A stretch of 23,142 nucleotides of DNA from a virus. Under the pieces are notes generated by a model. It saw only the letters and a list, made by a program, of their open reading frames with translations, had not been told where the DNA came from and searched no databases. Positions 2,072 through 16,380 of the stretch are shown piece after piece; the stretch's first letter is position 1, and each line of letters begins with the position of its first letter. The position numbers and the translations under genes are program-made. The DNA lies in IMG/VR virus record IMGVR_UViG_3300017719_000217, positions 1 to 23,142 of that record, one strand, 5' to 3'.

Positions 2072-2794
2072 TTAAAGTCCTTTCAAAATTTCCCACGTAT
2101 CTTGCCAATCCTTAACTTGAAAGCATTTAGCATTAGGATAGTCTTTAAGAGTGTTGGCGAGAGGCCAATCATTTCCACCAATTTCCATCTTATCTCCAAA
2201 GAAATAAATTTCATCATCCATACTGAAATCCTGAACGATTTGAGCTTTATCTCTACCAATAGGATAAATGTCTAAACCAGTTTCGCCACCAATTTGAGCG
2301 GTAAGACAAGTACTTTCAGAACCAAACACATAATTGAAAGTTCTAGAAATATGTAGGCGTTCATTGTTTATTTTGTCATACTTAACATATTGCTCTCTTT
2401 GTTCTGGTGTTGCGTTACGTCCTACAATGCTGAAGTTAACACAACCGCGGCGTTCTTCAATATGATTACCAGTTTGTGGTTGGAATGGTGAACGAATGAG
2501 TTCCATTTCTAACCAATGACGAGCGGTGTCTGGCAATGTCCAACTTGATGCGTTGGCAATCTTGCCTTTAAATCTTGTTTCGTTTCCGCTGCAATTATAA
2601 ACAGTAACAACTTCTTCGCAAATGTTTTTGCCGAGCTGTTCTAATGTTTTTGGATAATCACTGCCAGTAACAAGCCATGTTTTGTTTGTTTGGATAAAAC
2701 CCCAAAACCATTTTTCAAAATGGAAGTCTATTTTTGCACGACTAGGAGTAAGAGTTCCGTCAACGTCAAATATAAATTTTCTTAGTTTTGCCAT
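2072..2794 (-). CDS. Eukaryotic-type phosphomannomutase (HAD superfamily)
   Basis: Predicted to interconvert mannose-6-phosphate and mannose-1-phosphate, feeding GDP-sugar synthesis. Starting at MAKLRKF, it shows HAD motif I FDVDGTLT (residues 9-16; nucleophile D10, acid D12), motif II around LVTGSD, a cap with RRGCVNFSIVGRNATPEQRE...YDK, a Lys in GRDKAQ, and motif IV FFGDKMEIGGND. The cap signature and GGND match the PMM1/PMM2 family (PF03332), about 245 residues, rather than the bacterial alpha-D-phosphohexomutase family; length is 240. ATG at 2794 is chosen over GTG at 2800. It overlaps a 53-residue gene upstream, with no clear ribosome-binding site, suggesting coupling. A nucleotide-sugar dehydrogenase and a cytidylyltransferase lie just upstream. 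Confidence 0.85.
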   Translation of the reverse strand: MAKLRKFIFDVDGTLTPSRAKIDFHFEKWFWGFIQTNKTWLVTGSDYPKTLEQLGKNICEEVVTVYNCSGNETRFKGKIANASSWTLPDTARHWLEMELIRSPFQPQTGNHIEERRGCVNFSIVGRNATPEQREQYVKYDKINNERLHISRTFNYVFGSESTCLTAQIGGETGLDIYPIGRDKAQIVQDFSMDDEIYFFGDKMEIGGNDWPLANTLKDYPNAKCFQVKDWQDTWEILKGL

Positions 2795-2943
2795 GCGCAC
2801 GCCGTTAATTCATTATCCTCAAAAGTTGCCCGTAACACTGCTTGGTTAATATCACACTGCTGCCGTGTATTATAACGGTTAAACTCTACAACTTTATAAT
2901 CATTATATTCTGGAATAAACGATATGACAAATAATATCCACAT
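2782..2943 (-). CDS. 53-residue conserved-type small phage protein
   Basis: The start overlaps the previous gene's stop as TAATG (2945-2941), and the end overlaps the phosphomannomutase start by 13 bases. The sequence opens with a hydrophobic stretch (MWILFVISFIPEY) and contains a YNTRQQCDINQAVL segment. It resembles short proteins seen in marine T4-like phages. The opening could be a membrane anchor or a beta strand. Function is unknown. A possible ribosome-binding site, AAGGAG, lies 12 bases upstream. Confidence 0.6.
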   Translation of the reverse strand: MWILFVISFIPEYNDYKVVEFNRYNTRQQCDINQAVLRATFEDNELTACAWQN

Positions 2944-3059
2944 TATTCTTCCAACTCCTTATAGACCCAACGACTTAGGGGAGGGTCGCCAAAATAGCGA
3001 GCGTAAACAATATTACCTACGCGTTCAAAAATTAGATGTTTACTATCTTTCGTTTCCAT
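2943..3059 (-). CDS. 38-residue conserved-type small phage protein
   Basis: ATG at 3057-3059 has AGGAGA about 10 bases upstream. The product centres on FERVGNIVYARYFGDPP, a pattern I associate with a short conserved protein of T4-like marine phages (recollection of family, not a search). It overlaps the 60-residue gene upstream by 17 bases and shares TAATG with the next gene. No function is known. Confidence 0.6.
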   Translation of the reverse strand: METKDSKHLIFERVGNIVYARYFGDPPLSRWVYKELEE

Positions 3060-3225
3060 TACACCAATGTCTCCTATTATGAGCGTTTTTAATTAGTTCA
3101 CTAAAGCGGTCTGCAATTCGTCTAACTTCAGGACCAGCGTTATTATCATGTTGTTCCATAATACGTGCAGTGTTATGTAGTTGATTCAGCATTTCTGAAT
3201 CCATTTCCCATTGCTCGTCACTCAT
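3043..3225 (-). CDS. 60-residue helical hypothetical protein
   Basis: It starts by ATGA overlap with the preceding 59-residue gene (TGA 3222-3224, ATG 3223-3225). It is mostly helical and charged (MLNQLHNTARIMEQH and VRRIADRFSELIKNA) and ends CNGNER. There is no strong ribosome-binding site beyond GGTG, consistent with translational coupling. No family is recognised. Confidence 0.6.
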   Translation of the reverse strand: MSDEQWEMDSEMLNQLHNTARIMEQHDNNAGPEVRRIADRFSELIKNAHNRRHWCNGNER

Positions 3226-3401
3226 CGTTGCACCAACGGTTTAACGTTTTGGTTATCATGATAGTCGCCTGACGTATAATAGTCTCGGCTTGCTTCTTCT
3301 TTAATCATACTGCCGTTACGCATACGATATGTAATAATTTCACGTCTGATTACGCCGTCAGTATCAGCATCAAACGCGTTCTTAAATGGTCCATCAGTCA
3401 T
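3222..3401 (-). CDS. 59-residue conserved-type small phage protein
   Basis: ATG at 3399-3401 overlaps the end of the cytidylyltransferase gene by 8 bases, with GAGAG about 6 bases upstream. It ends by ATGA overlap with the next gene. The product carries REIITYRMRNGSMIKEEASRDYY and then GDYHD, a combination that looks like a short conserved protein of marine T4-like phages. Function is unknown. It is one of four consecutive genes under 62 codons linked by exact overlaps. Confidence 0.6.
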   Translation of the reverse strand: MTDGPFKNAFDADTDGVIRREIITYRMRNGSMIKEEASRDYYTSGDYHDNQNVKPLVQR

Positions 3402-3801
3402 TACAAACTCTCTTTCTTAAATCACTTGTACTAAAACGGTGATCCCGTTTATTAAAATATAAATCTATACCACGTTTACGGCAAATGTCTTTACCTGTAA
3501 AATCTTTTTCCTTATACTCAACTCCGAGGATACGAATATCTATATGGTACATTGATAATATATCACAAAGATCACCTTCTGTCAAATACGGAATGATCTC
3601 ATCAACGTAACTTATAGCTTTTAATTGCGTATAGCGCTCAACCACAGTTTGCACGGGAGCGTTCTTATCAGGGCGATCTAAAGTTGGATTGATTTGTAAA
3701 CCACAAATTAAATAATCGCACTGTTCTTTTGCGTCTCTTAACATTTGTACATGTCCTGCATGCAGTAAATCAAATGCTGATGCTGTAAACCCAACCTTCA
3801 T
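3394..3801 (-). CDS. TagD-like cytidylyltransferase
   Basis: Nucleotidyltransferase of the HIGH superfamily that most likely activates a small phosphate ester (for example glycerol-3-phosphate) with CTP, releasing pyrophosphate. With the start at ATG 3801, residues 10-17 (FDLLHAGH) hold the HxGH motif, and residues 122-131 (RFSTSDLRKR) match the C-terminal ISTS/T signature. Length 135 fits the family (about 130). AGG lies seven bases before this ATG, and the previous gene stops two bases upstream. A start five codons earlier is less likely. The substrate could also be a sugar or alcohol phosphate; that part is inferred. It lies between the dehydrogenase and phosphomannomutase genes of the glycan set. 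Confidence 0.8.
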   Translation of the reverse strand: MKVGFTASAFDLLHAGHVQMLRDAKEQCDYLICGLQINPTLDRPDKNAPVQTVVERYTQLKAISYVDEIIPYLTEGDLCDILSMYHIDIRILGVEYKEKDFTGKDICRKRGIDLYFNKRDHRFSTSDLRKRVCND

Positions 3802-3802
3802 T

Positions 3803-4582
3803 TTATGACCTAACAATACTAATCACGTTTGATGTATCCACTTTTAGGTTTTCATTGTATTTTCTTGCAGCTTCAATAATAGACATATTTTCTCCATAAC
3901 GTTCACCTGTCCTGCATATAGCGCTCGTATCTTTTGGAAAGCAATGTCCACCAAATCCACGTTCACGCGTAATAGTCGTATGGCTTTTTCCTATTCTGCG
4001 GTCTTGCGTTACAAAGTGAGATACTAATGCATAATCAACTCCTGCGGCTTCGCACAAATCATAAATCTGATTAAAGAACGAAACCTTGGTCGCTAGGAAT
4101 GAATTGATAAAGTATTTAGCTAAAATTAATTCTTTAGGATCTGCTACTTCTAATTTGCAGCCTAATCTTTTTCCTAATATATCTACCCAGAACGCAACGT
4201 CACCGCCGCCGAGCTGTATTACTTGTTGCTTTTTAAAATCTTCAACAGCATACTTAGCTCTGAGGTATTCTGGCGAAAACGTAATTTGTTTATCAGGGAA
4301 ATTATTTTCAATTGAGACCCATCCTTCTAGACTAATAGTTGATTTAATTAAAATTGGAACATCAGGACATGTTTCAAGAACTCCATACACATTACGCATA
4401 TCACAAGATCCATCATCTTCATGCTGTGGTGTACTGACTGCAATAATAACGCAGTCAGTATTTTCATCCCAATTTGTATATCCTAATGCAGGATCGTAAA
4501 CAGTTACATTATCGTTTTTACCTGCAAGAGCAAACGCGTGAGCCTTTCCAACAAACCCGTATCCTGCTATTTGAATTTTCAT
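3803..4582 (-). CDS. UDP-glucose/GDP-mannose dehydrogenase family protein, short form
   Basis: NAD-dependent oxidation of a nucleotide sugar C6 alcohol to a uronic acid is the family reaction. Seen: an N-terminal Rossmann motif (GYGFVGKAHA, residues 7-16), IAVSTP at 47-52, the family Glu in SPEYLR, Lys156 and Asn160 in LAKYFINSF, and the catalytic Cys214 in GFGGHCFPKDT. Only 259 residues are present, against about 390-450 for the family: the C-terminal NDP-sugar-binding domain is missing. There is no sign of a frameshifted remainder, because the next gene starts two bases later. Either it works without that domain or has a changed role. Start ATG overlaps the upstream stop (ATGA). Confidence 0.8.
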   Translation of the reverse strand: MKIQIAGYGFVGKAHAFALAGKNDNVTVYDPALGYTNWDENTDCVIIAVSTPQHEDDGSCDMRNVYGVLETCPDVPILIKSTISLEGWVSIENNFPDKQITFSPEYLRAKYAVEDFKKQQVIQLGGGDVAFWVDILGKRLGCKLEVADPKELILAKYFINSFLATKVSFFNQIYDLCEAAGVDYALVSHFVTQDRRIGKSHTTITRERGFGGHCFPKDTSAICRTGERYGENMSIIEAARKYNENLKVDTSNVISIVRS

Positions 4583-4926
4583 AATTTAAGCCATTCCATT
4601 TTTTCAACCTGCAAATCACGATAAGCAATTTGTTCTACATCTTTATCCGGATCGTCTATCATTGTTTGCCATACATGGTAAACGTGGTTTTCAACTTGAT
4701 AAGATGATTTGTCGCACACATATTCAGATTTAGCTGTCATAAATATCCAAGACAATCCATCTTCTGATTCCCTACACTCCAAAATTCCTCCAGATATTTT
4801 CCATTCAGTCTTTGCCTTTGCGGCCTCATAACCTTCGTTCCAACCACATAATAACCGATAGTGTGGTGTTTCGTGGTTTTTTACTTTAAATATTACCCAG
4901 CTGCTAGGGTTCCATTGCTTTAACAT
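4579..4926 (-). CDS. Hypothetical protein, 115 aa, Trp-rich
   Basis: Rich in tryptophan and predicted beta strands: SSWVIFKVKNHETPHYRLLCGWNEGY, then WKISGGILECRES and LSWIFMTAKSEYVC. This suggests a small beta-rich fold, with a helical tail ending QVEKMEWLKL. No domain is recognised. ATG at 4926 has GGA eight bases upstream and lies inside the end of the preceding gene. It overlaps the dehydrogenase start by ATGA. It may be a small beta protein found in related phages; the role is unknown. Confidence 0.65.
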   Translation of the reverse strand: MLKQWNPSSWVIFKVKNHETPHYRLLCGWNEGYEAAKAKTEWKISGGILECRESEDGLSWIFMTAKSEYVCDKSSYQVENHVYHVWQTMIDDPDKDVEQIAYRDLQVEKMEWLKL

Positions 4927-5143
4927 TTTTGTATTCCATTTCTGTTTTTATTTCTGTCCCTTCTTTATCGTAGGCAATTCCCAGAGCAAGTGATTGTATG
5001 TCTTCAATCAAAACTCGGCACGTATGCGCATCATATGTTTGCTCTGCCAAGTCACTATATTGATTTCTAAGACGGTGAACCATAACAGCTTTGTCTTTCA
5101 TAACTTCTATACGTCTAATTAAATCTTCAATAGTATGTTGCAT
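4904..5143 (-). CDS. Hypothetical helical protein, 79 aa
   Basis: The start shares TAATG with the stop of the upstream 110-residue gene. The sequence is largely helical and charged (IEDLIRRIEVMKDKAVMVHRLRNQYSDL), consistent with a short coiled coil. It has two cysteine- or histidine-bearing positions (HTCRVL). It overlaps the next gene by 23 bases. No function is recognised. Confidence 0.65.
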   Translation of the reverse strand: MQHTIEDLIRRIEVMKDKAVMVHRLRNQYSDLAEQTYDAHTCRVLIEDIQSLALGIAYDKEGTEIKTEMEYKNVKAMEP

Positions 5144-5475
5144 TACATTACGCTTTCATCTTCCCAACGATTGAGGGACTTGAGTTTTTGTTCCACTGTC
5201 CAATCCGCTAAATATTCGTTATCTGAATCAAACAGCTTTAGTACTTCTTCTTGAGTTAACACGACTTTGTCAACGGTTTGTTCTCCCAACCATTTTTGAG
5301 AGAATTCTTTAACGCGTTCTTCCATCACCAACTCTTCAACCCACGTTAAAGCTTCTTTATCGTTTCCTTCGAGTTTTGTATTTGGGTTTAATTTTTGCAA
5401 GTCAGAAATCGGTACTGCATATCTCATGCGGTGTGTTGAAACCACGGTTACCATTGCAAATCGTTCATCACTCAT
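5143..5475 (-). CDS. Hypothetical protein, 110 aa
   Basis: The N-terminal third looks like beta strands (FAMVTVVSTHRMRYAVPISDL). It is followed by an acidic helical part with EALTWVEELVMEERVKEFSQKWLGE and a C-terminal WTVEQKLKSLNRWED. ATG at 5475 overlaps the previous TGA as ATGA. It resembles uncharacterised proteins of T4-like marine phages. Role unknown. Confidence 0.65.
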   Translation of the reverse strand: MSDERFAMVTVVSTHRMRYAVPISDLQKLNPNTKLEGNDKEALTWVEELVMEERVKEFSQKWLGEQTVDKVVLTQEEVLKLFDSDNEYLADWTVEQKLKSLNRWEDESVM

Positions 5476-5774
5476 CTTTTACGTTTCCTTCTTTTATTTA
5501 TCGGTCGCAAGTGGTGCAAACCGTCTATCACACGATTAGGGTATTCACCGAGATAAGTACCCGCTATTAGATCCATAGGACCGATTAAATGTTTATGAAA
5601 ATGTTCTATTTCATTCCATTTGTCATACATTACTTTTGCCATATTATCAAAGAACTGATCTGACAATATTGGATCATCTTCTTTATAGTATGCATATGCA
5701 GCCATAAGATACCAAGGAACCATAAGATTAATATTTTTATCAAAAAAACCTTGTGCTTTAGTATCTAACAACAT
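5472..5774 (-). CDS. Hypothetical protein with DNA-ligase-Ia-like segment, 100 aa
   Basis: ATG at 5774 directly follows the TAA of the hydrolase gene (5775-5777). The central stretch PWYLMAAYAYYKEDDPILSD followed by QFFDNMAKVMYDKW resembles the N-terminal Ia helix pair of NAD-dependent DNA ligase (pattern Y-Y...D.P.LSD..FD.L). The rest of the ligase, including adenylation motifs, is absent. The C-terminus is very basic (KRRKRKR). The likeness is limited and may reflect a common fold without NAD chemistry. Similar stand-alone proteins occur in marine T4-like phages. Function unassigned. Confidence 0.65.
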   Translation of the reverse strand: MLLDTKAQGFFDKNINLMVPWYLMAAYAYYKEDDPILSDQFFDNMAKVMYDKWNEIEHFHKHLIGPMDLIAGTYLGEYPNRVIDGLHHLRPINKRRKRKR

Positions 5775-6302
5775 TTACTGATCCCAACGATAAAAGATAT
5801 GAGCACCAAGACGGCCAACCTGCTGAAGGTCTTTAGCCCAACGCGGACTTACATAAGTTGCATGATAATGAGTGGCTCCTTCGGTAATGCCACGGTATTT
5901 TCCCCACTCAAGTAATTGTGACGCAATCATTTGAGCTTCATTCCAACGATCCTGATCTTGTGGGTTATCAGATTTTCCGTCGCAGTACCAGCTAAACTGA
6001 CACATATTACGCTTCATTGAACCGTCTGCATTTTTAATGCCTTGCTGGACAACTTCGCATATTGTGTTAGGATAACGTGTATCGTACTTTCTATTTAGAA
6101 CTACATCTGCAACTCCAGCTTTATCCGCAAGGTTGCTGCCACGTGATTCATAGTATATGTTTAAAGCCAAGCAGTTAGCTTCTTGTTCTGACCATAGTCT
6201 TTCTTGCTCGGCCGCAATTACAGGTAGTGTAAGAGATCCTATAACTACTGTTCCTGTCAAAGCTGCGGATACTGTTGCTGCGATAATTTGTTTCAGTTTC
6301 AT
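5775..6302 (-). CDS. Exported cell-wall hydrolase, SleB/CwlJ family
   Basis: Predicted peptidoglycan-cleaving enzyme (PF07486 family). From MKLKQII, residues 1-31 form a signal peptide (basic start, hydrophobic core, cleavage after VIAA). The catalytic domain shows LALNIYYESRG (Glu52), AGVADVVLNR, CQFSWYCDG, then GATHYHATYVSPRW and the closing RLGAHIFYR. The family's full core is present in 175 residues, with no cell-wall-binding repeat. ATG at 6302 has GAGG six bases upstream, better than the ATG four codons earlier. It has its own consensus promoter and a TATAAATA box, and sits far from the endolysin/spanin genes, so it may act at another stage or site. Confidence 0.85.
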   Translation of the reverse strand: MKLKQIIAATVSAALTGTVVIGSLTLPVIAAEQERLWSEQEANCLALNIYYESRGSNLADKAGVADVVLNRKYDTRYPNTICEVVQQGIKNADGSMKRNMCQFSWYCDGKSDNPQDQDRWNEAQMIASQLLEWGKYRGITEGATHYHATYVSPRWAKDLQQVGRLGAHIFYRWDQ

Positions 6303-6318
6303 TGTGTGCCTCAATTTA

Positions 6319-6326
6319 TATTTATA
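6319..6326 (-). promoter_or_regulatory. T4-like late promoter box TATAAATA (candidate)
   Basis: An exact TATAAATA octamer on the minus strand lies between the TTGACA/TATATT promoter and the hydrolase ATG. Transcription from it would begin near 6313, leaving a leader of only about 11 bases containing the GAGG ribosome-binding site. That short leader weakens the case. Confidence 0.3.
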
Positions 6327-6332
6327 GTTACT

Positions 6333-6361
6333 AATATAACTGATTCTATTGAGTATGTCAA
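6333..6361 (-). promoter_or_regulatory. Sigma70-type promoter, TTGACA-17-TATATT
   Basis: -35 TTGACA at 6356-6361, -10 TATATT at 6333-6338, 17-base spacer. It lies in the 62-base gap ahead of the exported hydrolase and directly after the stop of the 80-residue coiled protein. The spacer contains TAGAATCAGTTA, which recurs near the promoter at 89-117. Confidence 0.75.
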
Positions 6362-6364
6362 TGG

Positions 6365-6607
6365 TTATTTTCTATCTTGCCTTATTTGGTTCAAAACATT
6401 TTTAAGTTTAAACACAATTCCGGTTTGCAATGCTTCTTTGGACCAATAGCTTTCATCTTCAGTCAAAGCATCAAGAGTATCCATAAGCATCATGTTTTGT
6501 CCACGCAAACCGTCAATATCGCTACGTAACATTGCCTTTTCAACTTTGTGTTGTTTGATTTCTTGCTGTAAGTAATGTACTCCAGCTTCGTTTGGTTTGA
6601 CTCGCAT
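6365..6607 (-). CDS. Hypothetical coiled-coil protein, 80 aa
   Basis: Begins MRVKPNEAGVHYLQQEI and is almost entirely amphipathic helix (EIKQHKVEKAMLRSDIDGLRGQNMMLMDTLDAL), so an oligomerising coiled coil is likely. The start overlaps the previous gene's stop as TGATG. No family is recognised. It is the last gene before the hydrolase promoter. Confidence 0.65.
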   Translation of the reverse strand: MRVKPNEAGVHYLQQEIKQHKVEKAMLRSDIDGLRGQNMMLMDTLDALTEDESYWSKEALQTGIVFKLKNVLNQIRQDRK

Positions 6608-8175
6608 CAGCCGTGCTTTTCAAAGAAATTGTAATCTGAAATGTAAATCCATTTAATAAAGTCAATTTGGTCTTTACTGAAATCGTCTGCGGTGATTTCT
6701 TTTACTGTAAAGTTTAGTACTTTGTTTATTTTAAAAAAGTTATTGACTTCGTGTTTATTAATAACTTGAAACTCTTTAAAGTTTTTAGTATCAACAAACA
6801 TACATTGAGGATGAAAATGATGTACTTGATGCGCGCCTGATATTTTATGGAGATTTTTAAAGAACAAGTCTATCTTTTCTTGCTTTGTACACTCAGCAAG
6901 GTTTTTACCAAATGAATTGAAAATATCCTTTCCGTAATCGTAATATCTTTGACCTTCAGTTAAGTATACATTGATTAAAGAAACGAACCTTTCAACGGGA
7001 TCTGTGAATACGACTATAGGTGTACCTTTATCCTTTTTGTTTTTTATGACTGCTTTATATTCTTTTGTATCTCTAAAGATTTGCTTTCGGTCAGGATGCG
7101 TTTCCTTAATTGTAACCGAACAACTTCTTGGCACTTCAAACCAAGTTTGTTTTCCGTCAAGATCATATAATAAAGGCCATGAAAGTTTATTGCACCAAAA
7201 ACATTCGCAAGGTGAAAACTTGAATTCTTTAAACAAGTCTGTTTCAGGTAAAAAGAAATCTCTTAACTTTTGATTTTGCAAAAGCATAGATGGAAGTTTG
7301 GCAAGTGGATATCTTTTCAACACGTGGTCTGCAAATCCGTCAGGAGCAGGTCCACCTTCAACTGGTTGTGTATCCTTTACAAATTTCTTATATGCTCCAT
7401 CGTTATAACCATCTAGCGTTTTCATCCATTGAAGTTTATCAAAAGCATGTGCAAAAGATTTGGCTTTCGTTTCACGCTGAGAGTTTGTTCCCATCCATGC
7501 AAAATGCCAACCAAGATCTTGTATCATTTGTCCGCCGTGCATTGCAAACTGTAGCTTAAATGGCATATTGCCACAGCGAATGTTTAACATACCACCTGAC
7601 CTGTTAACCTGGTGTTTAGTTGCCATAAACATAGCTCGTTGCCAAATTCTAAAGGCACCTGTCGATTTATGATATACTCTTAAATCAGCTCTGCCTTGTA
7701 AATAAACTAAAGGTATTTTAAGAATGGAGTGATTACTATTTTGTTGAACGAGTTCAGCTAACCACTTTACGTTTTTAGGATCTACGATTTCGTCTGCATC
7801 GCCATATATAAAAACATCATCCGAGTCAAAATCTTTCATACCTTCCATAACAGCATCTTTTTGCAGACGCTCACGTACACGGCACAGTATAGATTCTATG
7901 CTACTATTTTTACCGGCATTTTGCTGGTCAATTGGCATTACAACCAAATCATTATCGTCAGGAATATCATGCTCAATGTAAATGATTTTTTCCATAGGAA
8001 GTCCAAGGTTCCTTGCAATTTCAAGAAACTTTCTTTCAACAGGCGCACCGCTGTGTGTCTTATTAGACTCAACGATGATAAAGTTATCAACCACATCTTT
8101 TAGCATATTAACCCGAAGCTGCAGAATTTCTTCGTTAGTCGGAGCAAAAAATGGAAAGCAATCTACAATTTTCAT
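6607..8175 (-). CDS. GT17-like glycosyltransferase fused to a sulfotransferase-like domain
   Basis: Two domains in 522 residues. Residues 1-250 match glycosyltransferase family 17 (PF04724, bisecting-GlcNAc transferase relatives): KIVDCFPFF, RVNMLKDVVDNFIIVES, SGAP, KIIYIEHD, and the metal/nucleotide site GDADEI (125-130). Residues 320-522 resemble membrane-type carbohydrate sulfotransferases: a PAPS 5'-phosphosulfate-like loop WFEVPRSCSVTIK (345-357), a 3'-phosphate-like FTDPVERFVSL (390-400), HHFHPQ (452-457), and a terminal YISDYNFF. No signal peptide or membrane segment, so it would act in the cytoplasm. The gene abuts a methyltransferase gene; together they suggest assembly and sulfation or methylation of a glycan. 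GT17 call firm; sulfotransferase call probable, activity and substrate inferred. Confidence 0.8.
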   Translation of the reverse strand: MKIVDCFPFFAPTNEEILQLRVNMLKDVVDNFIIVESNKTHSGAPVERKFLEIARNLGLPMEKIIYIEHDIPDDNDLVVMPIDQQNAGKNSSIESILCRVRERLQKDAVMEGMKDFDSDDVFIYGDADEIVDPKNVKWLAELVQQNSNHSILKIPLVYLQGRADLRVYHKSTGAFRIWQRAMFMATKHQVNRSGGMLNIRCGNMPFKLQFAMHGGQMIQDLGWHFAWMGTNSQRETKAKSFAHAFDKLQWMKTLDGYNDGAYKKFVKDTQPVEGGPAPDGFADHVLKRYPLAKLPSMLLQNQKLRDFFLPETDLFKEFKFSPCECFWCNKLSWPLLYDLDGKQTWFEVPRSCSVTIKETHPDRKQIFRDTKEYKAVIKNKKDKGTPIVVFTDPVERFVSLINVYLTEGQRYYDYGKDIFNSFGKNLAECTKQEKIDLFFKNLHKISGAHQVHHFHPQCMFVDTKNFKEFQVINKHEVNNFFKINKVLNFTVKEITADDFSKDQIDFIKWIYISDYNFFEKHG

Positions 8176-8751
8176 TTATGATCTTTCTAATACTGTCAGT
8201 CCGTTATTGTTTGTTCTATGGTCTCTAAATTTCCAATGAGGATTTGCCATAATAAATTCAATAATGGCTGGAAGCAATCCTTGACCTTTGATTGCTTTAC
8301 GGTTTGGATTTGACGCCCACTCCATACTTTCGTCAACAGTACCATATGTATGAGTATCATGAAATGCTAAGAATCTTGTTGGTACATTACCATGCATAGC
8401 AAGTTCTTGTCTTAGTTGAGCCTGTGAATGCCATGTATCAATAAACAGCATATCAGTCGGTTCAATTTTAACTTGCAGTACATCTTTGATAATATAGTCA
8501 ACATCCTTACCTGCTTTACGAGCCATTTCAAATAATTCAGTAACACTTGGTTCTTCGTAAATGTCATATGACCGCAACACTACATCGCAAGTTAGGAATG
8601 CTCGAGAGCTCGCGCCACGGCGAACTCCCATTTCAGTTACGTGTTTACAGTGTTCAGCATAGTCTTTTAAAATCGGAAGATGCTCATTAATATCAGTGGG
8701 CTTAGCGGACCACTCATTGTATGTTTGGTTTATAATTGTTTGAAAGTTCAT
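8176..8751 (-). CDS. Class I SAM-dependent methyltransferase-like protein
   Basis: Resembles the Methyltransf_24/CmcI-type group that often O-methylates sugars. SAM motif I is HVTEMGVRRGASS (residues 37-49; E40, G42, G46). The acidic ribose-binding strand may be SYDIYEE. The motif LFIDTWHS and the AFHDTHTYG segment (HD..H) carry acidic and histidine residues that bind metal in relatives. Length 191 fits a single Rossmann domain. It starts by ATGA overlap with the RmlB-like gene, AAGGTGG eight bases upstream. Glycan methylation is inferred from its neighbours; a small-molecule target is possible. Confidence 0.75.
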   Translation of the reverse strand: MNFQTIINQTYNEWSAKPTDINEHLPILKDYAEHCKHVTEMGVRRGASSRAFLTCDVVLRSYDIYEEPSVTELFEMARKAGKDVDYIIKDVLQVKIEPTDMLFIDTWHSQAQLRQELAMHGNVPTRFLAFHDTHTYGTVDESMEWASNPNRKAIKGQGLLPAIIEFIMANPHWKFRDHRTNNNGLTVLERS

Positions 8752-9773
8752 ATGTCAAGCCACCTTCTGTTATCTAAAGTCCACTGGACCACTTCAGCAA
8801 TTCTTTCTCTAACAGGTTGCGGACGCCAACCCATATTCGCCATACGATCACCACTAAGAGCATAACGAAGATCATGGCCAGGACGGCTAGAATGGAAATC
8901 CATAAACTCATATTTAAGTTCCTTTCCTTGTGCGTCAGCAATAAGATTTGCGAGTTCTAAATTGTTAAGCTCGGTTGCTCCGCAGATGTTAAACTTAGGA
9001 CATTTAATACCACTATTATTTGACATATCTAAAGTACGATTGTGTTCTAGCAAAAACATTGTTGCGTCAGCTACATCTTCAGCGTGAATGTAATGACGAG
9101 ATCCTGGTATTGTTTTGCTTGCATCGCTATGAATTGTAACAGTACCGTCATCTCTTACATTCCGAATAGTCATAGGAATAAACTTTTCAGGATGTTGACG
9201 TTGGCCAAACACATTCATAGTGTGAGTAATATAAATTGGCATATTATAAGTATTTTGATATGCAACAGCCAATTCCTCAGCTCCAGCCTTAGATGCTGAA
9301 TATGGATTAGTACAATTATAACGATCATATTCGTCATACTTAATTCCATCCGGAGCAGGTCCAAATACTTCGTCTGTTGAAAAGTATAAGAACCTTTCAA
9401 GATTGTCTTGCCGACGACCATAATCTAAAAGATTAGCCGTACCCACTACGTTATCCATAACAAATTCCATAGGACGCTCAATAGAACGATCTACGTGGGA
9501 ACCAGCTGCCAGGTGAGCAATAATATCAACAGGACCAATGTCTGCTTCGAGCATTGGGTTGATTTCTGCCTTTAAGTCGTGGAAGATTGTTCGTACACGT
9601 TTACGCTCAGCAGGAGTTCGTTCCTGAAGTAAATCATGGAGGCGATTGAGATTACCGCTATAATCTAAACGATCAAGCGTTACAATTTCCCAGTCTGTTC
9701 GGAGGAGTACCTGATTAATTAAATGGTGAGCAATAAAACCACCGCCACCAGTAATTAGAATACGTTTTGCCAT
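8748..9773 (-). CDS. rmlB: dTDP-glucose 4,6-dehydratase-like SDR enzyme
   Basis: Extended short-chain dehydrogenase/reductase that most likely converts a nucleotide hexose to its 4-keto-6-deoxy form. Seen: NAD-binding ITGGGGFI (residues 7-14), HLAAGSHVDRS, a catalytic STDEVFG (132-138) with the Asp-Glu pair typical of RmlB, then YSASK with Tyr158 and Lys162. VFGQRQHPEKFIP and RHYIHAEDVADA follow. Length 341 matches RmlB (about 340-360). ATG 9773 has AAAGG seven bases upstream. The DE pair and length favour RmlB over GalE or GDP-mannose dehydratase, but the nucleotide is not certain. No RmlA, C or D is in the window, so the host would have to supply them, or the keto sugar goes elsewhere. Confidence 0.85.
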   Translation of the reverse strand: MAKRILITGGGGFIAHHLINQVLLRTDWEIVTLDRLDYSGNLNRLHDLLQERTPAERKRVRTIFHDLKAEINPMLEADIGPVDIIAHLAAGSHVDRSIERPMEFVMDNVVGTANLLDYGRRQDNLERFLYFSTDEVFGPAPDGIKYDEYDRYNCTNPYSASKAGAEELAVAYQNTYNMPIYITHTMNVFGQRQHPEKFIPMTIRNVRDDGTVTIHSDASKTIPGSRHYIHAEDVADATMFLLEHNRTLDMSNNSGIKCPKFNICGATELNNLELANLIADAQGKELKYEFMDFHSSRPGHDLRYALSGDRMANMGWRPQPVRERIAEVVQWTLDNRRWLDI

Positions 9774-9815: not shown

Positions 9816-10235
9816 TTACTTTAGCCAACCGATCCTTTTGCCTTTAGCAATGCGATCTTCAGCAATAGCCTGGGAGCCAGGATAACGCCATGCCCATGTA
9901 ACAATTAATGCGAATGTAATAAACAAGTAAAGCGTTGCTTTTTCATTACCTGTACCAAAATACATAAATGCCAAAGACGTGGACATAACTGCAACCATCA
10001 GCCATTTAGCGGCGGTTGGATATACACGGTACTTTGACCAGTTTTTAACAAATGGACCAAACCTTGGGTGGTTCATAATCCATGCATGCAATCTATCACT
10101 TGATTTAGCGAAACAAAACGTTGCGCCAAGAATTGGTGTTGACCAAGGTAGACCAGGTAGTAATACGCCGAGATACGCTACTCCTACTAAAATAATTCCT
10201 AGACAAAACCAAAAGGCTTTTTTAATCTTACTCAT
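9816..10235 (-). CDS. DUF454 (YbaN-type) inner-membrane protein
   Basis: From MSKIKKAFW, a hydrophobic helix (FCLGIILVGVAYLGVLLPGLP) leads into GLPWSTPILGATFCFAKSSDRLHAW and FGPFVKNW, the DUF454 signature. Two further hydrophobic segments lie near residues 75-110, so 3-4 membrane passes are expected. ATG at 10235 has AAGGA about seven bases upstream and gives the usual family N-terminus. An in-frame ATG at 10289, overlapping the previous TGA and led by GGAG, would add 18 residues. Function of DUF454 is unknown. It is unusual phage cargo, placed just behind 5-aminolevulinate synthase. Confidence 0.75.
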   Translation of the reverse strand: MSKIKKAFWFCLGIILVGVAYLGVLLPGLPWSTPILGATFCFAKSSDRLHAWIMNHPRFGPFVKNWSKYRVYPTAAKWLMVAVMSTSLAFMYFGTGNEKATLYLFITFALIVTWAWRYPGSQAIAEDRIAKGKRIGWLK

Positions 10236-10285: not shown

Positions 10286-10384
10286 TCATAATCCTAAACT
10301 CCACATCCATACTGGTATTACTACAACGTGTAAAAACACGCATAGAAATAACATCAGTTTGACTGTTAACATATTATTGTTCAT
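10286..10384 (-). CDS. 32-residue hydrophobic (membrane) peptide
   Basis: ATG at 10382-10384 overlaps the ALAS stop as ATGA. The frame ends with TGA at 10286-10288, overlapping the alternative DUF454 start at 10287-10289, again as ATGA. The product [19 protein letters not shown] and following VVVIPVWMW forms one transmembrane helix. It is supported only by the double overlap and composition; the ribosome-binding site (GAAG about 8 bases upstream) is modest. It may be a small membrane peptide accompanying DUF454. Confidence 0.45.
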
Positions 10385-11574
10385 TTAAGCACTTCTTTCA
10401 ATGCTTCTACCAACTCTACCATCATCACGTCATTGTGATACGGCGTTGGCGCAATTCGTAATCTTTCAGTACCAGCATTAACGGTTGGCGAATTAATTGC
10501 TTGAATATAAATTCCATACTCATTCAACAAACGATCACTGGCGTCTTTGCACTTAAACGCATCATTAACCATTACAGGGACGATATGTGTGCAACACGAG
10601 TCATGAACTGGTATATTAGCTTCGCTCAACAATTGTTTCAGTTTTGTTGCTCGTTGTTGATGTTGGGATCGCAAGCCTGTATGATCTTTGAGAAATTTGA
10701 TTGAGGCAATTGCTCCGGCGCACACGGCGGGCGATATACTTGTTGTAAAGATGAACCCAGAAGCCACGGACCTAATAGCGTCAATGACAGTACGATTCCC
10801 ACTAATATACCCGCCTTGAACTCCGAATGCTTTTCCAAGTGTACCATTAATAATATCTACCCTGTCTTCTAAACCAAGGTGCTCGCAATAACCTCCACCT
10901 TGTTCGCCGTATAAACCAACGGCATGTACTTCGTCAATATACGTAATTGCGTTATATTTATCCGCTAAGTCCAATATCTGTTCAATAAGAGCAACATCGC
11001 CATCCATAGAATACACAGACTCAAATAGTATACAAGGTACCTGTCCACTTTCTGTTGCAATAGTTAATGCTTCCTCGAGATCTGCCATATCGTTATGATG
11101 AAAAATCATTTTATCAGCACGGCTGTGCTTAACGCCCATAATGATAGACGCATGATTTTTGTTGTCAGAAATAAAACATATGTTTGGTATAATTCTACTT
11201 AAAGAAATAATAGCCCATTCGTTTGCAACATATGCGGACGAGAAAAGAAGTGCTGACTCCTTTTTATGAAGCGACGCAAGTTCTCTTTCTAATGTAACAT
11301 GGTATTGCGAGGTTCCGCCAATATTGCGTGTACCGCCGGATCCTGATCCTGTTTGGTCTAAAGCTGTGTGCATAGCGTCAATAACATATTCGTTTTGACC
11401 CATACCAAGATAGTCGTTTGAGCACCAATTAACAATATTCTTAGGAGCGTATTTGCCATACCAAATTGCTTTTGGAAAGTTACCACGTTCTCTTATGATA
11501 TCATTAAAAACTCTATAACGACCATCTTCTCTATAACTATCGACTGTATTTTTAAAATAGTGCAAATGTTTCAT
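10381..11574 (-). CDS. hemA: 5-aminolevulinate synthase
   Basis: PLP enzyme condensing glycine with succinyl-CoA to 5-aminolevulinate, the first committed step of haem and other tetrapyrrole synthesis (C4/Shemin route). From MKHLHYF (397 aa, family about 400): [25 protein letters not shown] (76-88), [28 protein letters not shown] (214-220), PLP lysine K248 in [16 protein letters not shown], and [11 protein letters not shown]. The TRNI motif and close fit throughout favour ALAS over glycine C-acetyltransferase or BioF. Complete, all key residues present. ATG 11574 lies one base after the NrdA TAA, with GAAG six bases upstream. Embedded in the nucleotide-synthesis operon, so expressed with it. 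The alphaproteobacterial type suggests the host lineage; no regulatory CP motif is visible. Confidence 0.9.
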
Positions 11575-11575
11575 A

Positions 11576-13234
11576 TTAAGCTTCGCAGGCTGCACAACCT
11601 TCTAACATTACACGCTTTCGAGTAAGTGATTGCGCTGCAGACATTGAATAACTGTAGTACAAACTCTTTACACCCATTTCCCACGCATATAGATACATTT
11701 GATTGATTTCTTTAACTGACATATCAGGATCTAACATTAGGTTTAGACTTTGCGATTGGTCAATGTATTCTTGACGAATTGCGGCTTGGTCAATAATTGC
11801 GTTTGGATTAATTTCTGAAAACGTTTTGAATACGGCTCGTTCATTTTCATCCAGCAATTCTACAAGGTGTTGCACAGATCCATCTCTTGCTTTAATACTA
11901 TCCCACGTTTCTACGGTATCTGCACCTTTATCTTCAAGGAGTTTTTGTAGATATGGATTTTTGATTGTAACTTTCATTTTGGCCAGATCTTTAACATAAC
12001 AGTTGCTGAACTCAGGCTCAATTGATTGTGATACTTGCCCAAGAATAAAGCTCGATGATTTAGTAGGAGCAATTGCCATCGTTGTAGTATTACGCATTCC
12101 ATAACCTTTTAGTAAAGGTGGCTCGCCTAAAGTTTTTGCTAACTCAGTAGACGCCGCGTGGGATCTTTCACGTAATGTTTGTGCAATTTCTAAATTCAAT
12201 TTTGACGCAGCTGAACCTTCAAAGGCCATCATTTTTGATTGAAGTAACGAATGCCATCCAAGAATACCAACACCAAGGGCGCGGTGGTTCATAGCAAAGT
12301 CACGCGCTCGTTTTAAATAGATTTGGCCTTCTGTTTTAATAATAAATTCTTCACAAACAGTATCAAGGAATTTTGTCATTGTTTCAATCGCGTCAGTATC
12401 TTTAATTTGATCCCAATGCAATACGTTAATAGAAGAAAGTACACATGTAAATGTTTCTTCGTGGCTGGATGGTAACGCAATTTCAGCACACATGTTTGAA
12501 GCATAAACTCTCATATCTTTGTCTTTATAGACTTGCGGTCTTCCGTTATTTACATTATCGGAATATAGGATATAAGGAAAACCAACTTCAGAACGACGTT
12601 GTAGAACCTTTGCCCACAAGCGGCGCTTTTCAGGATCCCCTGCTTTCATTTCTTCAATGAATTTATCACTAACAGTAATACCAGTTGTTAGACCTTGAAT
12701 AGGATTGCCTTCTGTACCAATGTCCAAAAACTCATCAGCATCAGGATGTTCAATGTCTTGATATGCAGCAAAGAAACCGCGGCGAACAGAACCTTGTGAT
12801 ACAACAGACGCAAGTGTATCATACATTTGCATAAAGTGTACTGAGCCTGAGGACTCGCCTGAGTCTCGAATAGGAGCGCCACGATGACGGATATTACCAA
12901 AGTAACCTGACGTACCACCACCGTTTTTCATTAGCATACCGTTTTCAGCATGACCAAACAAGATAGCTTGCATGCTATCATCAATGTATGAACCAAAGCA
13001 AGATACAGGTAAACCTCGTTCTTTACCGTAATTAGCCCAAACAGGAGATGCTAACGAATAAAAGCCACGAGCCATATACTCATAAAACTTGTCCGCAAAT
13101 CCTGGCTCGTTTAAATATTCTTCTGCTTTGTTTGCAATATCACGGATACGGCTTTCAGGAGTTTCACCTTCGCTAAGATAGCCGCGCGACAAAAATGTAC
13201 GAGAGTCCTCGTTTAACCAATAAAAATCTTTCAT
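11576..13234 (-). CDS. nrdA: Class I ribonucleotide reductase, catalytic subunit
   Basis: Reduces ribonucleoside diphosphates to deoxy forms, using a radical from NrdB. Seen: redox Cys79 in LPVSCFG, its partner Cys264 in FTCVLSS, the active-site N-M-C249-A-E251, the [12 protein letters not shown] loop, a radical-transfer tyrosine pair in SLYYS (526-527), and the C-terminal CAAC shuttle (547 and 550). At 552 residues it is about 200 shorter than E. coli NrdA (761): it begins directly in the ten-helix region and has no ATP-cone. The cone is instead fused to the partner NrdB upstream. ATG 13234 has AAGGA with good spacing. Followed immediately by the ALAS gene; a 12-base gap separates it from nrdB. 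Confidence 0.95.
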
Positions 13235-13246
13235 GTTTTTTCCTTA

Positions 13247-14530
13247 TTAAAATAGATCGTCTTCGGTGAATGCTTTGGTCTTTTTAGAATATGCTGTACT
13301 ACGTTTAACAAAGAAGTCAACATTCTTTGTACTCAAAATTTCTTCAACGAACCAGTCGGTACTTTTTACCGCCTCTTGATCTACCTCATATAAAGGCTTC
13401 ATATCTATAGCTGTTAATGATTGATTGAAACGATGTTTTAGGAATTCTTTAACAGTTGCTTTCGGCAAAAAGTCTAGGTCAGATTCACCATAGATCCAAT
13501 CGACGATAGCAGACTCAGCCTTGAAGGCATCGCGGCAAAGTCTATTCACTTCGTTAATACTTTCTTTATCAAACCACTCTGGGTTTTCTTCACGGATAAT
13601 GTTTACAAGCTCAAATCCGAAACGAGCATGGATATCTTCTTCTTTTGATGTTGCCTCTACGGCGTTGGAAATACCTTTTAATACATTCTTGTGTTTATTA
13701 AATGCCATCATAATTAGGAACTGACTAAACAGTGATACGTTTTCAACAAACATAGAGAATAGAATAATTTTATGGAAATAATCTTTATCATCAACTGGTG
13801 CAGCAATTGACTGCTCAAGATAAGCAATACGCTTTTTCATGGCAGGTACTTCTACAATCTTTGCAAACTCTTCGTTAAGTCCCATAATCTCAATAAGATT
13901 TGAATAAGCGTCGGCGTGACGTACTTCAGACTCGCCAAAGGTTACACCAACTGCCTGTACTTCTGGCTTTGGAAACTTATCACCGATTTTTGACCAAAAC
14001 GTTTTAACCGCAACTTCAATTTGAGAAATAGCCAACATTGCTTTCTTTACAATATCAACTTCCTCAGGTGTCATACGTACTTTCATATCTTGAATATCTG
14101 AGGAATAATTAAACTCAGTATGTACCCAATACGAATGGCGAATAGCGTCAGTAAATTCAACTACCTGTGGATACTCGTATGGTTTTAAACTTGTTCTTTT
14201 ACGAAAAATGTTTGGTTGGTTATTATAACGGAATAAAATATATTCACGAGCAAGATCGTGTAATCCCATATCCATAATTACATTTTCTACCTTTTGGTGC
14301 ACGGCATCAACATCAACTTGAATGTCTGCTTCATCATCTCGGTTCAACAAATCTGTAACTTCTAACGCAACTTCACCAGGAAGCATTCTACTTCGCATAC
14401 CAACGGTTTTCATAGCTTTAGATACGGCAGTACTAATTTTATTCTCATCATAAGATTCAGTAGTACCATCGCGTTTAGTAACGTAATTAACTCGTCTTAG
14501 AATTTCTGGTGGAGTTGATTGTAGCATCAT
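13247..14530 (-). CDS. nrdB: Class I ribonucleotide reductase radical subunit with N-terminal ATP-cone
   Basis: Residues about 14-105 form an ATP-cone (YVTKRDGTTESYDENKI ... LAREYILFRY), the allosteric activity domain usually found on NrdA. The ferritin-like core follows, with likely metal ligands D148, E202, H205, E263, E298 and H301 (SEVRH, FVENV, SKEEDIH). The radical tyrosine Y209 is in the ADAYS segment, so a tyrosyl-radical type is expected. The C-terminus ends in TEDDLF, the region that contacts NrdA. Length 427 equals a core (about 325) plus cone. Cone-bearing NrdB proteins are known, for example in Leeuwenhoekiella blandensis, where the cone controls activity through oligomerisation of NrdB. 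Two adjacent ATG codons are possible; the second has better spacing from GAGGA. Confidence 0.95.
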   Translation of the reverse strand: MMLQSTPPEILRRVNYVTKRDGTTESYDENKISTAVSKAMKTVGMRSRMLPGEVALEVTDLLNRDDEADIQVDVDAVHQKVENVIMDMGLHDLAREYILFRYNNQPNIFRKRTSLKPYEYPQVVEFTDAIRHSYWVHTEFNYSSDIQDMKVRMTPEEVDIVKKAMLAISQIEVAVKTFWSKIGDKFPKPEVQAVGVTFGESEVRHADAYSNLIEIMGLNEEFAKIVEVPAMKKRIAYLEQSIAAPVDDKDYFHKIILFSMFVENVSLFSQFLIMMAFNKHKNVLKGISNAVEATSKEEDIHARFGFELVNIIREENPEWFDKESINEVNRLCRDAFKAESAIVDWIYGESDLDFLPKATVKEFLKHRFNQSLTAIDMKPLYEVDQEAVKSTDWFVEEILSTKNVDFFVKRSTAYSKKTKAFTEDDLF

Positions 14531-14697: not shown

Positions 14698-15366
14698 TTA
14701 TTTTTGAACATAAGTATCAATTAACGGAAATATTTTGGATATGGCTTTTGCACATTCAGCTGCAATATCCATGTGTTCTTGTTGTGTTCCATTTGAAGCA
14801 CGCAGCTCAATATAATGGATCCAAGATCGGATAGAGCCTTGCATATACAAACGGCTAATAGTATTACCTTCAGGCAAAACCGCACGAGCCTGCTCTTTAG
14901 CAATACCATTTTCAATAGCCCACTTGTATGCATCTTCCGCCGCACGAATAACTTCACCCTGTTTTGAGTCCCACATCATCTGCAAACGTTCGTCAGAGTT
15001 AGCAATACTATTTTGACGGTTTTTAGTATCTTGTAAACGTGCTTCACGCGTTACAAACTGATTACCCATAAGCGCAGGGTCAGCATATCGTTGACTAAAC
15101 TCCTGAAAAGCAAAGGAGCGATGTCGTAACATTTGGCGAGCAATATCACGAGTAGTTTCAATTTCCATTGTTGCATTAGCCATTTCAAATGGTGACCAAT
15201 GAGCATGTTTTGCTAAGTAACCTAATAGCTTCGGCGCTGTTTCTTGGTTCAATTGATTAGTAGGATTTGACACTCTTGCGCAATATGCAATCATATCTTG
15301 CACATCGTCGAGCCCAATAATTTCTCCTTCAGCTGGTTGAGTATAACCAATTAATCTAACTTGCAT
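14698..15366 (-). CDS. thyX: FAD-dependent thymidylate synthase ThyX
   Basis: Converts dUMP to dTMP with methylenetetrahydrofolate, FAD and NADPH, supplying the phage with dTTP beside its ribonucleotide reductase. The signature RHR-x7-S is seen at R81-H82-R83 to S91 (RHRSFAFQEFSQR). HWSPFEMANATMEIE precedes it, and LPEGNTISRLYMQGSIRSW supplies the C-terminal active-site Ser/Arg region. Length 222 matches the family. ATG at 15366 has AAGGA seven bases upstream. A 167-base gap separates its stop from nrdB. Complete, no anomaly. Confidence 0.95.
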   Translation of the reverse strand: MQVRLIGYTQPAEGEIIGLDDVQDMIAYCARVSNPTNQLNQETAPKLLGYLAKHAHWSPFEMANATMEIETTRDIARQMLRHRSFAFQEFSQRYADPALMGNQFVTREARLQDTKNRQNSIANSDERLQMMWDSKQGEVIRAAEDAYKWAIENGIAKEQARAVLPEGNTISRLYMQGSIRSWIHYIELRASNGTQQEHMDIAAECAKAISKIFPLIDTYVQK

Positions 15367-15375
15367 TTTGTATCC

Positions 15376-16380
15376 TTATGATTTGCGCCATGCGCTGAGT
15401 TTCAATTCTGCTTGTAATCCTTGATAAGTATTATCTTCAATTAACTTTTCAGGATCAAGTCCTGCTAAATAGATTTCGTTAATATCTTTACCTGGGACGT
15501 CGGATGGCCATATACAAACCTTGTAGCCTGCTTTAATAACCTTTTCCATTCTTTTGTGTATTTCTTTGTTTCTTGGCTCAGCATCAAAGACATATATTGC
15601 GTTGTCTCCTGCAGCGTTGCCGTTGCCTTCAGCACCATTCATTGCAATAGCGTTTTCAATAAAGAAACTATCAATAGCGCCTTCAACAATATAATATGGT
15701 TGTGAAAAGTCAACTTTATCAAGGCCAAATATTTTTGGTCTTTCTTCAAACATTATAGTTATATATCTAATTCCTTTAGGATCAAACCCACGAGCAGATA
15801 CACCAAAGCAATTGCCGTTTTGATCTAAGAAAGGTATTACCAACCGCGGTTCATCTTTACCTATGTTTTCAAATTTATTAGGAATAATTTCATTAATCCA
15901 AGTCTTAAACTTTTTTGCAAAGTATAAACGATAATGATGCTTAGTTGGTATTTTACGTTTTTCAATATATCTTTTAATAGGATGGTCAGATTTAAGTTGA
16001 CTTATCTTCTTAATTTTTAACAGCGGGTTCTTCTTATTAAAGACTGGAGCTTTTGTCTTAAATTGATTCTCATCAGGTTCCGAGTCTTTTACAGCAGTAT
16101 TAGCCATAAACTTTTCCGCCACATAATCATTATACAATAATTGGTCTATGCTCTTTAAAAAGAACGAGAAGCCTTGGCTAGCTCCACAGTTGTGGCAGTA
16201 ATAATGGAACACGTTCTTTGACTCTAGGAGCCAACCACGGCTTTTAGACCGTGACTTTTGGGAGTCCCCACAAACTGGGCACCGAAAGTTAATTTTGTAA
16301 GGATTTGTGTTACGTATTCTAAAGTTTTCCAAACGCCCGGATAGCATTTGTGCATACTTTAGTTCTGTAAAATCTACCAT
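15376..16380 (-). CDS. DNA primase, T4 gp61 type
   Basis: Synthesises RNA primers on the lagging strand with the phage replicative helicase. Seen: an N-terminal zinc ribbon with C34-C37 and C62-C65 (RCPVCG and CHNCGAS), a basic linker, then the Toprim-like catalytic half with YIVEGAIDS (Glu233) and VFDAEPRNKEI (Asp266), plus KDINE. Length 334 is close to T4 gp61 (342). ATG 16380 has a weak ribosome-binding site (GAG nine bases upstream) but follows a perfect consensus promoter at 16415-16443, so it begins the replication/metabolism unit. The helicase is not in the window. Confidence 0.85.
   Translation of the reverse strand: MVDFTELKYAQMLSGRLENFRIRNTNPYKINFRCPVCGDSQKSRSKSRGWLLESKNVFHYYCHNCGASQGFSFFLKSIDQLLYNDYVAEKFMANTAVKDSEPDENQFKTKAPVFNKKNPLLKIKKISQLKSDHPIKRYIEKRKIPTKHHYRLYFAKKFKTWINEIIPNKFENIGKDEPRLVIPFLDQNGNCFGVSARGFDPKGIRYITIMFEERPKIFGLDKVDFSQPYYIVEGAIDSFFIENAIAMNGAEGNGNAAGDNAIYVFDAEPRNKEIHKRMEKVIKAGYKVCIWPSDVPGKDINEIYLAGLDPEKLIEDNTYQGLQAELKLSAWRKS

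Follow-up and report, generated by a model that had tools for sequence, protein, structure and literature searches.

The 23,142-base IMG/VR virus record IMGVR_UViG_3300017719_000217 (the window, here always meaning this whole stretch), a fragment of a T4-like uncultivated phage, encodes a complete 5-aminolevulinate synthase (ALAS). The analysis makes it very likely that this gene is a member of the valaS group of phage synthases, is co-transcribed behind the ribonucleotide reductase (nrd) genes, and belongs to a phage tetrapyrrole and iron gene set which includes a DUF454 membrane protein as well as a haem oxygenase and a ferredoxin-dependent bilin reductase encoded at other places in related genomes. 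The identity of the ALAS, its intact residues, the purifying selection acting on it, its phage context and its linkage to DUF454 and bilin reductase genes are all read from sequence comparisons. The two window genes central to this proposal are:

10381..11574, minus strand: 5-aminolevulinate synthase (viral alaS), 397 amino acids, complete; assigned by TIGR01821, residues, tree and the ratio of nonsynonymous to synonymous substitution rates (dN/dS)
9816..10235, minus strand: DUF454 (YbaN-family) helical membrane protein, 139 amino acids as counted from the start kept in relatives, with longer versions possible from in-frame ATGs further upstream, at 10289 and 10343; PF04304, 94 bits, cut-off 35

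The ALAS frame opens with an ATG at 11574 and closes with a TGA at 10383-10381, and the plus strand across the same interval contains 13 stops. The coordinates in the initial annotation were correct, the minus-strand orientation being a point absent from it. Its description of the gene as complete and as starting one base past nrdA is borne out by the junction, which reads TAA-T-ATG, and all three motifs that it quoted are found in the protein. The 5-aminolevulinate synthase profile TIGR01821 matches with 565 bits, its cut-off being 339 (E = 6e-170), and the closest solved structures are the ALAS chains 7x98 and 2bwn (Rhodobacter capsulatus). The protein could alternatively be another alpha-oxoamine synthase, namely glycine C-acetyltransferase (Kbl), BioF, serine palmitoyltransferase or an autoinducer synthase, given that these enzymes share a common pyridoxal phosphate (PLP) fold family and that their profiles do match, at lower scores. 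Yet every such curated cut-off is missed (NF005394, 321 against 460 bits; bioF, 311 against 426; TIGR01822, 267 against 493; likewise the serine palmitoyltransferase and autoinducer-synthase models), and that of ALAS is beaten by more than 200 bits.

Comparison with R. capsulatus ALAS was made at the residues that serve for PLP, glycine and succinyl-CoA in its published structure. The equivalents of R21, N54, T83, N85, I86, S137, H142, D214, H217, K248, T365 and R374 show no variation in 59 viral ALAS sequences, and the PLP lysine and cofactor residues K248, D214, H217 and H141 are unchanged throughout the viral set. The four residues for the succinyl-CoA carboxylate in the window protein, R21, T82, N84 and I85 (R. 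capsulatus R21, T83, N85 and I86), are of the ALAS type, unlike those of Kbl (K, V, F, I) and BioF (R, S, H/L, V/L), and the Kbl and BioF controls deviate from ALAS at T83, N85 and mostly I86. A phylogeny against bacterial ALAS, Kbl and BioF, proposed earlier as a check, places the window protein beside phage and alphaproteobacterial ALAS and apart from the Kbl and BioF outgroups, whose branches are long in this tree. In light of this agreement between profile, residues and tree, assignment to one of the sister families is very improbable. The gene is also under purifying selection, with a dN/dS of 0.05-0.12 against four relatives. The profile score, the intact substrate residues and this ratio together indicate that it is almost certainly functional as an ALAS, and the encoded enzyme is predicted to be active.

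The window enzyme equals the bacterial ALAS structures (R. capsulatus 2bwn; 7x98) in length, in the catalytic lysine and in all substrate residues. It differs from the R. capsulatus enzyme at the haem site, where it is without His342, this position being occupied by Lys, and without the C-terminal stretch bearing Cys400. The missing haem-regulatory histidine was considered as a speciality of phage ALAS and rejected: His342 is present in none of the 29 alphaproteobacterial ALAS sampled, and its absence is therefore no phage trait. Feedback control of the window ALAS is not readable from its sequence.

A single scan of IMG/VR recovered 98 relatives, 80 of which were retained, and the 50,697 deposited phage records contained no true ALAS, their matches being Kbl or BioF with at most 36% identity. 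The viral sequences form one clade of 64 rows (99% support in the Shimodaira-Hasegawa-like approximate likelihood ratio test) with the window inside it, the published valaS sequences lying outside this tree. Its sister group consists of one phage copy, L158, and of Pelagibacteraceae ALAS (L178 and L179). The L158 copy would have been acquired separately or have replaced an earlier one in place; two origins of ALAS in phages are hinted at by the support values, but the approximately unbiased test does not reject a single one (p-AU 0.22).

Some close relatives of the window ALAS sit in public bacterial bins, which would be compatible with bacterial DNA having been mis-assembled into a viral contig. 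However, dozens of independent viral contigs that carry phage genes for a primase, for lysis and for the head share an identical gene order. Moreover, the sequences from Rhodobacteraceae bacterium Water_Bin34 (L173, L174 and L252) show the window's phage order of primase, nrd, ALAS, DUF454 and epimerase, and hence represent phage DNA in a bacterial bin. A mis-assembly is accordingly regarded as exceedingly improbable. The phage-type ALAS-DUF454 pair is also found in L175 and L176, from Neomarinimicrobiota and Flavobacteriales bins. The window itself is phage DNA: besides a T4-type primase (phrog_47) it has genes for a lysin, a head protein and two spanins of the Rz-like type, and this gene set implies that its ALAS is encoded on a phage genome. 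Both the enzyme identity and the phage location proposed in the initial annotation are therefore backed: the profile, the residues, the phylogeny and the neighbouring phage genes all speak for them.

As a kind, phage ALAS is already known, and the window provides a further member. The main text of Wegner et al. 2024, Nat Commun (PMC11480375) describes phage alaS (valaS) in aquatic myoviruses as related to ALAS of Pelagibacteraceae and occurring standalone or in a hemO-pcyA/X-valaS cassette, with a Rhodobacter-like sponge bin, possibly identical to Water_Bin34, as the one bacterial exception noted in its tree. It reports that the homologue CB_2 synthesizes 5-aminolevulinate (ALA) in vitro and complements an E. 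coli ALA auxotroph. Phage alaS has also been recorded in skin phages (PMC11549919), and a 2026 study employed it as a marker gene (PMC13390420). The idea of a phage ALAS was thus already in the literature, with activity data, and its description as uncommon phage cargo is outdated given that report and the 98 relatives found in one scan.

The genes upstream of ALAS confirm the nucleotide-synthesis neighbourhood noted earlier, with every member on the minus strand:

11576..13234, minus strand: NrdA, ribonucleotide reductase alpha subunit, NrdE-prime type (TIGR02510, 773 bits, cut-off 602)
13247..14530, minus strand: NrdB, ribonucleotide reductase beta subunit with N-terminal ATP-cone (PF00268, PF03477; phrog_86)
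14698..15366, minus strand: ThyX, thymidylate synthase dependent on flavin adenine dinucleotide (TIGR02170, 147 bits, cut-off 88)
15376..16380, minus strand: T4-type DNA primase, marker of the T4-like backbone (phrog_47)

The search of related phages for the same arrangement, suggested with the initial annotation, found an nrd gene ending at most 600 bp from the ALAS start in 34 of the 66 loci with enough sequence upstream of ALAS. These include a second group of loci with another nrd type, whose nrdA is about 34% identical to that of the window, so the placement of ALAS behind ribonucleotide reductase has been kept despite differing nrd genes. The window ALAS is probably co-transcribed with the ribonucleotide reductase genes. 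T4-like late-promoter motifs (TATAAATA) occur in the window at chance-level frequency only.

The DUF454 gene downstream, on which the initial annotation is silent, appears to be a new partner of phage ALAS and seems to be a more novel feature than the ALAS itself. Its dN/dS is about 0.05-0.08, and its AlphaFold2 model is helical throughout (predicted local distance difference test score, pLDDT, 92). DUF454 was found on 30 of the 48 ALAS contigs tested and on 19 of the 21 that are at least 30 kb long, one of the two exceptions having its ALAS near the contig end. Conversely, among the best 80 viral DUF454 loci ALAS lies at most 8 kb away in 64, and in one further case it is present on the same 201-kb contig. 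A total of 93 distinct viral stretches have DUF454 adjoining or near ALAS, in both orders and both orientations: ALAS is followed by DUF454 within 150 bp in 44, DUF454 comes first with an overlap of about 4 bp in 5, the two lie further apart on the same strand in 37, and they are on opposite strands in 7. In most relatives the gap between the two genes is far shorter than in the window, where a 32-codon hydrophobic frame (10286-10384, minus strand) forms an ATGA overlap with the ALAS stop and ends in a second ATGA overlap with the in-frame upstream start of DUF454 at 10289.

The pair also extends beyond the phage group of the window. Contig G044 has DUF454, ALAS and bilin reductase in an operon-like order with overlaps of 4 bp each; it has no window-type primase, and its tail sheath is nearest to those of Pseudomonas jumbo phages (47%). 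In L158 a 4-bp overlap joins ALAS to DUF454, beside T4-type baseplate genes; its DUF454 is nested within the other viral versions, and its ALAS is of a different lineage. On the same contig (7992-9186), the pair is followed by a gene for Fe-S biogenesis (IscA/ErpA-like) and a ferredoxin gene.

Haem oxygenase and bilin reductase were detected on 9 and 13, respectively, of 50 contigs tested. Two relatives of the window, 221 kb and 201 kb long, have both, and on the former, a close relative (G045, IMGVR_UViG_3300022921_000002), they lie about 28 kb from ALAS. The haem oxygenase of these relatives has its closest counterpart in Pelagibacter phage Mosig (32%). Just upstream of the two genes in G045 (L162, 610-1404) is a 264-residue frame with a signal peptide and a porin-like, beta-barrel-looking sequence, for which there were zero Pfam matches. 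A 96-kb contig (G035) that bears ALAS, haem oxygenase, bilin reductase and DUF454 also encodes a full-length DnaK-like protein (L446, 8297-10186), 67% identical to a deposited bacterial-type DnaK.

A number of observations weigh against the inclusion of these genes in one functional set. Neither haem oxygenase nor bilin reductase is found within the 23-kb window, and some large phage contigs have DUF454 without ALAS. DUF454 has no solved relative, and a fold search with its model gave no match in the PDB. A survey of 34 alphaproteobacterial loci of about 10 kb, in 25 of which DUF454 was located, showed no recurrent haem or iron partner and no haem-related neighbours, the ten annotated neighbours being DXS, MatE, chemotaxis and other unrelated genes. 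Finally, among 50 T4-like contigs chosen by primase only, ALAS is present on 10, DUF454 on 10, both on 9 and neither on 39, and on their primase tree the presence of the two genes falls largely within one clade, with 2-3 changes. The raw Fisher p of 4e-8 overstates the association for this reason, and a tree-aware test of the pairing found just 2 independent pairs, too few to inform.

Common descent accounts for part of this association, as judged from these trees. The adjacency could then reflect no more than the shared ancestry of one phage group, DUF454 having hitch-hiked beside ALAS with an unrelated role in infection, and the fact that the viral DUF454 sequences form a single clade is in keeping with this. 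The stronger arguments for the pairing are the altered order, the altered strand, the differing phage backbones and L158: the two genes adjoin with either one first and in some stretches lie on opposite strands, one pair lies in a contig with a Pseudomonas-jumbo-phage-like tail sheath, outside the window's group, and L158 has a different ALAS lineage beside a viral-nested DUF454, subject to a single ALAS origin being unrejected. Hitch-hiking is consequently a rather doubtful account. We tentatively suggest, as a possibility somewhat short of an even chance, that DUF454 is a dedicated membrane partner of the phage ALAS, haem and bilin genes, and that the pair constitutes a selected portable module of several phage lineages. 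If true, the pair would have been retained across these lineages despite a changed ALAS copy or gene order, and would be the first hint at what the widespread, Fur-regulated YbaN family does. One core member of the Fur regulon in E. coli is ybaN, its function being listed as unknown in Fur-regulon papers, and an Avibacterium DUF454 gene increases during iron starvation; among 35 papers naming YbaN or DUF454 there was no phage paper, as judged by title.

The regulation of ybaN by Fur, the release of iron in the haem oxygenase reaction, and the position of nrd directly before ALAS in about half of the loci, even with the other nrd type, would also fit an iron economy. Here ALAS, haem oxygenase and bilin reductase would cycle haem such that iron is freed or held for needs of the phage, among them the di-iron ribonucleotide reductase encoded alongside, with DUF454 moving iron or haem. 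However, ALAS uses no iron, net haem synthesis consumes it, and the nrd adjacency may mean operon expression only, leaving this explanation improbable. Under the favoured reading, in which the window ALAS is a valaS-type enzyme in a tetrapyrrole and iron set, it would most likely keep up or increase the supply of ALA to the infected cell, circumventing the control that the host exerts on the first tetrapyrrole step. This ALA would be converted to haem, with bilins and free iron as further products if haem oxygenase and bilin reductase are there too. A raised haem or tetrapyrrole supply, as also proposed initially, is a reasonable inference, and DUF454 may act at the membrane in the handling of haem, ALA or iron.

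An alphaproteobacterial host is plausible, with pointers from the Pelagibacteraceae-related ALAS, the Rhodobacteraceae co-binning and the primase, which is nearest to those of Sinorhizobium phage phiM19 and T4-like cyanophages (44-45% identity). These pointers are limited, as phages carry such genes from host to host. The earlier derivation of this host from the ALAS alone fails, given that PMC11480375 cites an alaS phage for which a gammaproteobacterium using the C5 route is the predicted host. The remainder of the window includes a run of sugar and surface genes (2072-9773, minus strand) encoding a dTDP-glucose 4,6-dehydratase-like epimerase, a GT17-like glycosyltransferase, a cell-wall hydrolase, a UDP-sugar dehydrogenase and a cytidylyltransferase-like protein; the gene at 2072-2800 (minus strand) matches the eukaryotic phosphomannomutase family PF03332. 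No Rfam elements or tRNAs were found in the window, and deposited phages gave zero matches to it at the nucleotide level.

On the whole, the window adds a widespread branch of phage tetrapyrrole genes, situated behind ribonucleotide reductase in T4-like phages, and ties the orphan iron-regulated membrane family DUF454/YbaN to haem-precursor synthesis, which offers a simple test of the function of this family. Two inferences are corrected in the process: phage ALAS is on its own no marker of an alphaproteobacterial host, and the missing R. capsulatus haem-site histidine is not phage-specific.

Relative to the PF04304 family, the window protein scores well over the cut-off, and the viral members group separately, in a clade that excludes the sampled alphaproteobacterial DUF454. 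The viral versions lie beside ALAS, where bacterial members were never observed: DUF454 is nearby in none of the genuine bacterial ALAS loci, and the family is present in only 3 of the 33 corresponding genomes. The large relatives of the window resemble pelagiphage Mosig and the cyanophages with ho1-pebS/pcyA cassettes in carrying haem oxygenase and bilin reductase, but in those deposited cassette phages no ALAS and no DUF454 were detected. With the valaS of Wegner et al., the window has in common a phage-encoded ALAS; the main text of that report (PMC11480375) mentions no nrd genes and no DUF454, whereas the copy described here, part of a T4-like backbone, starts one base past nrdA and adjoins DUF454.
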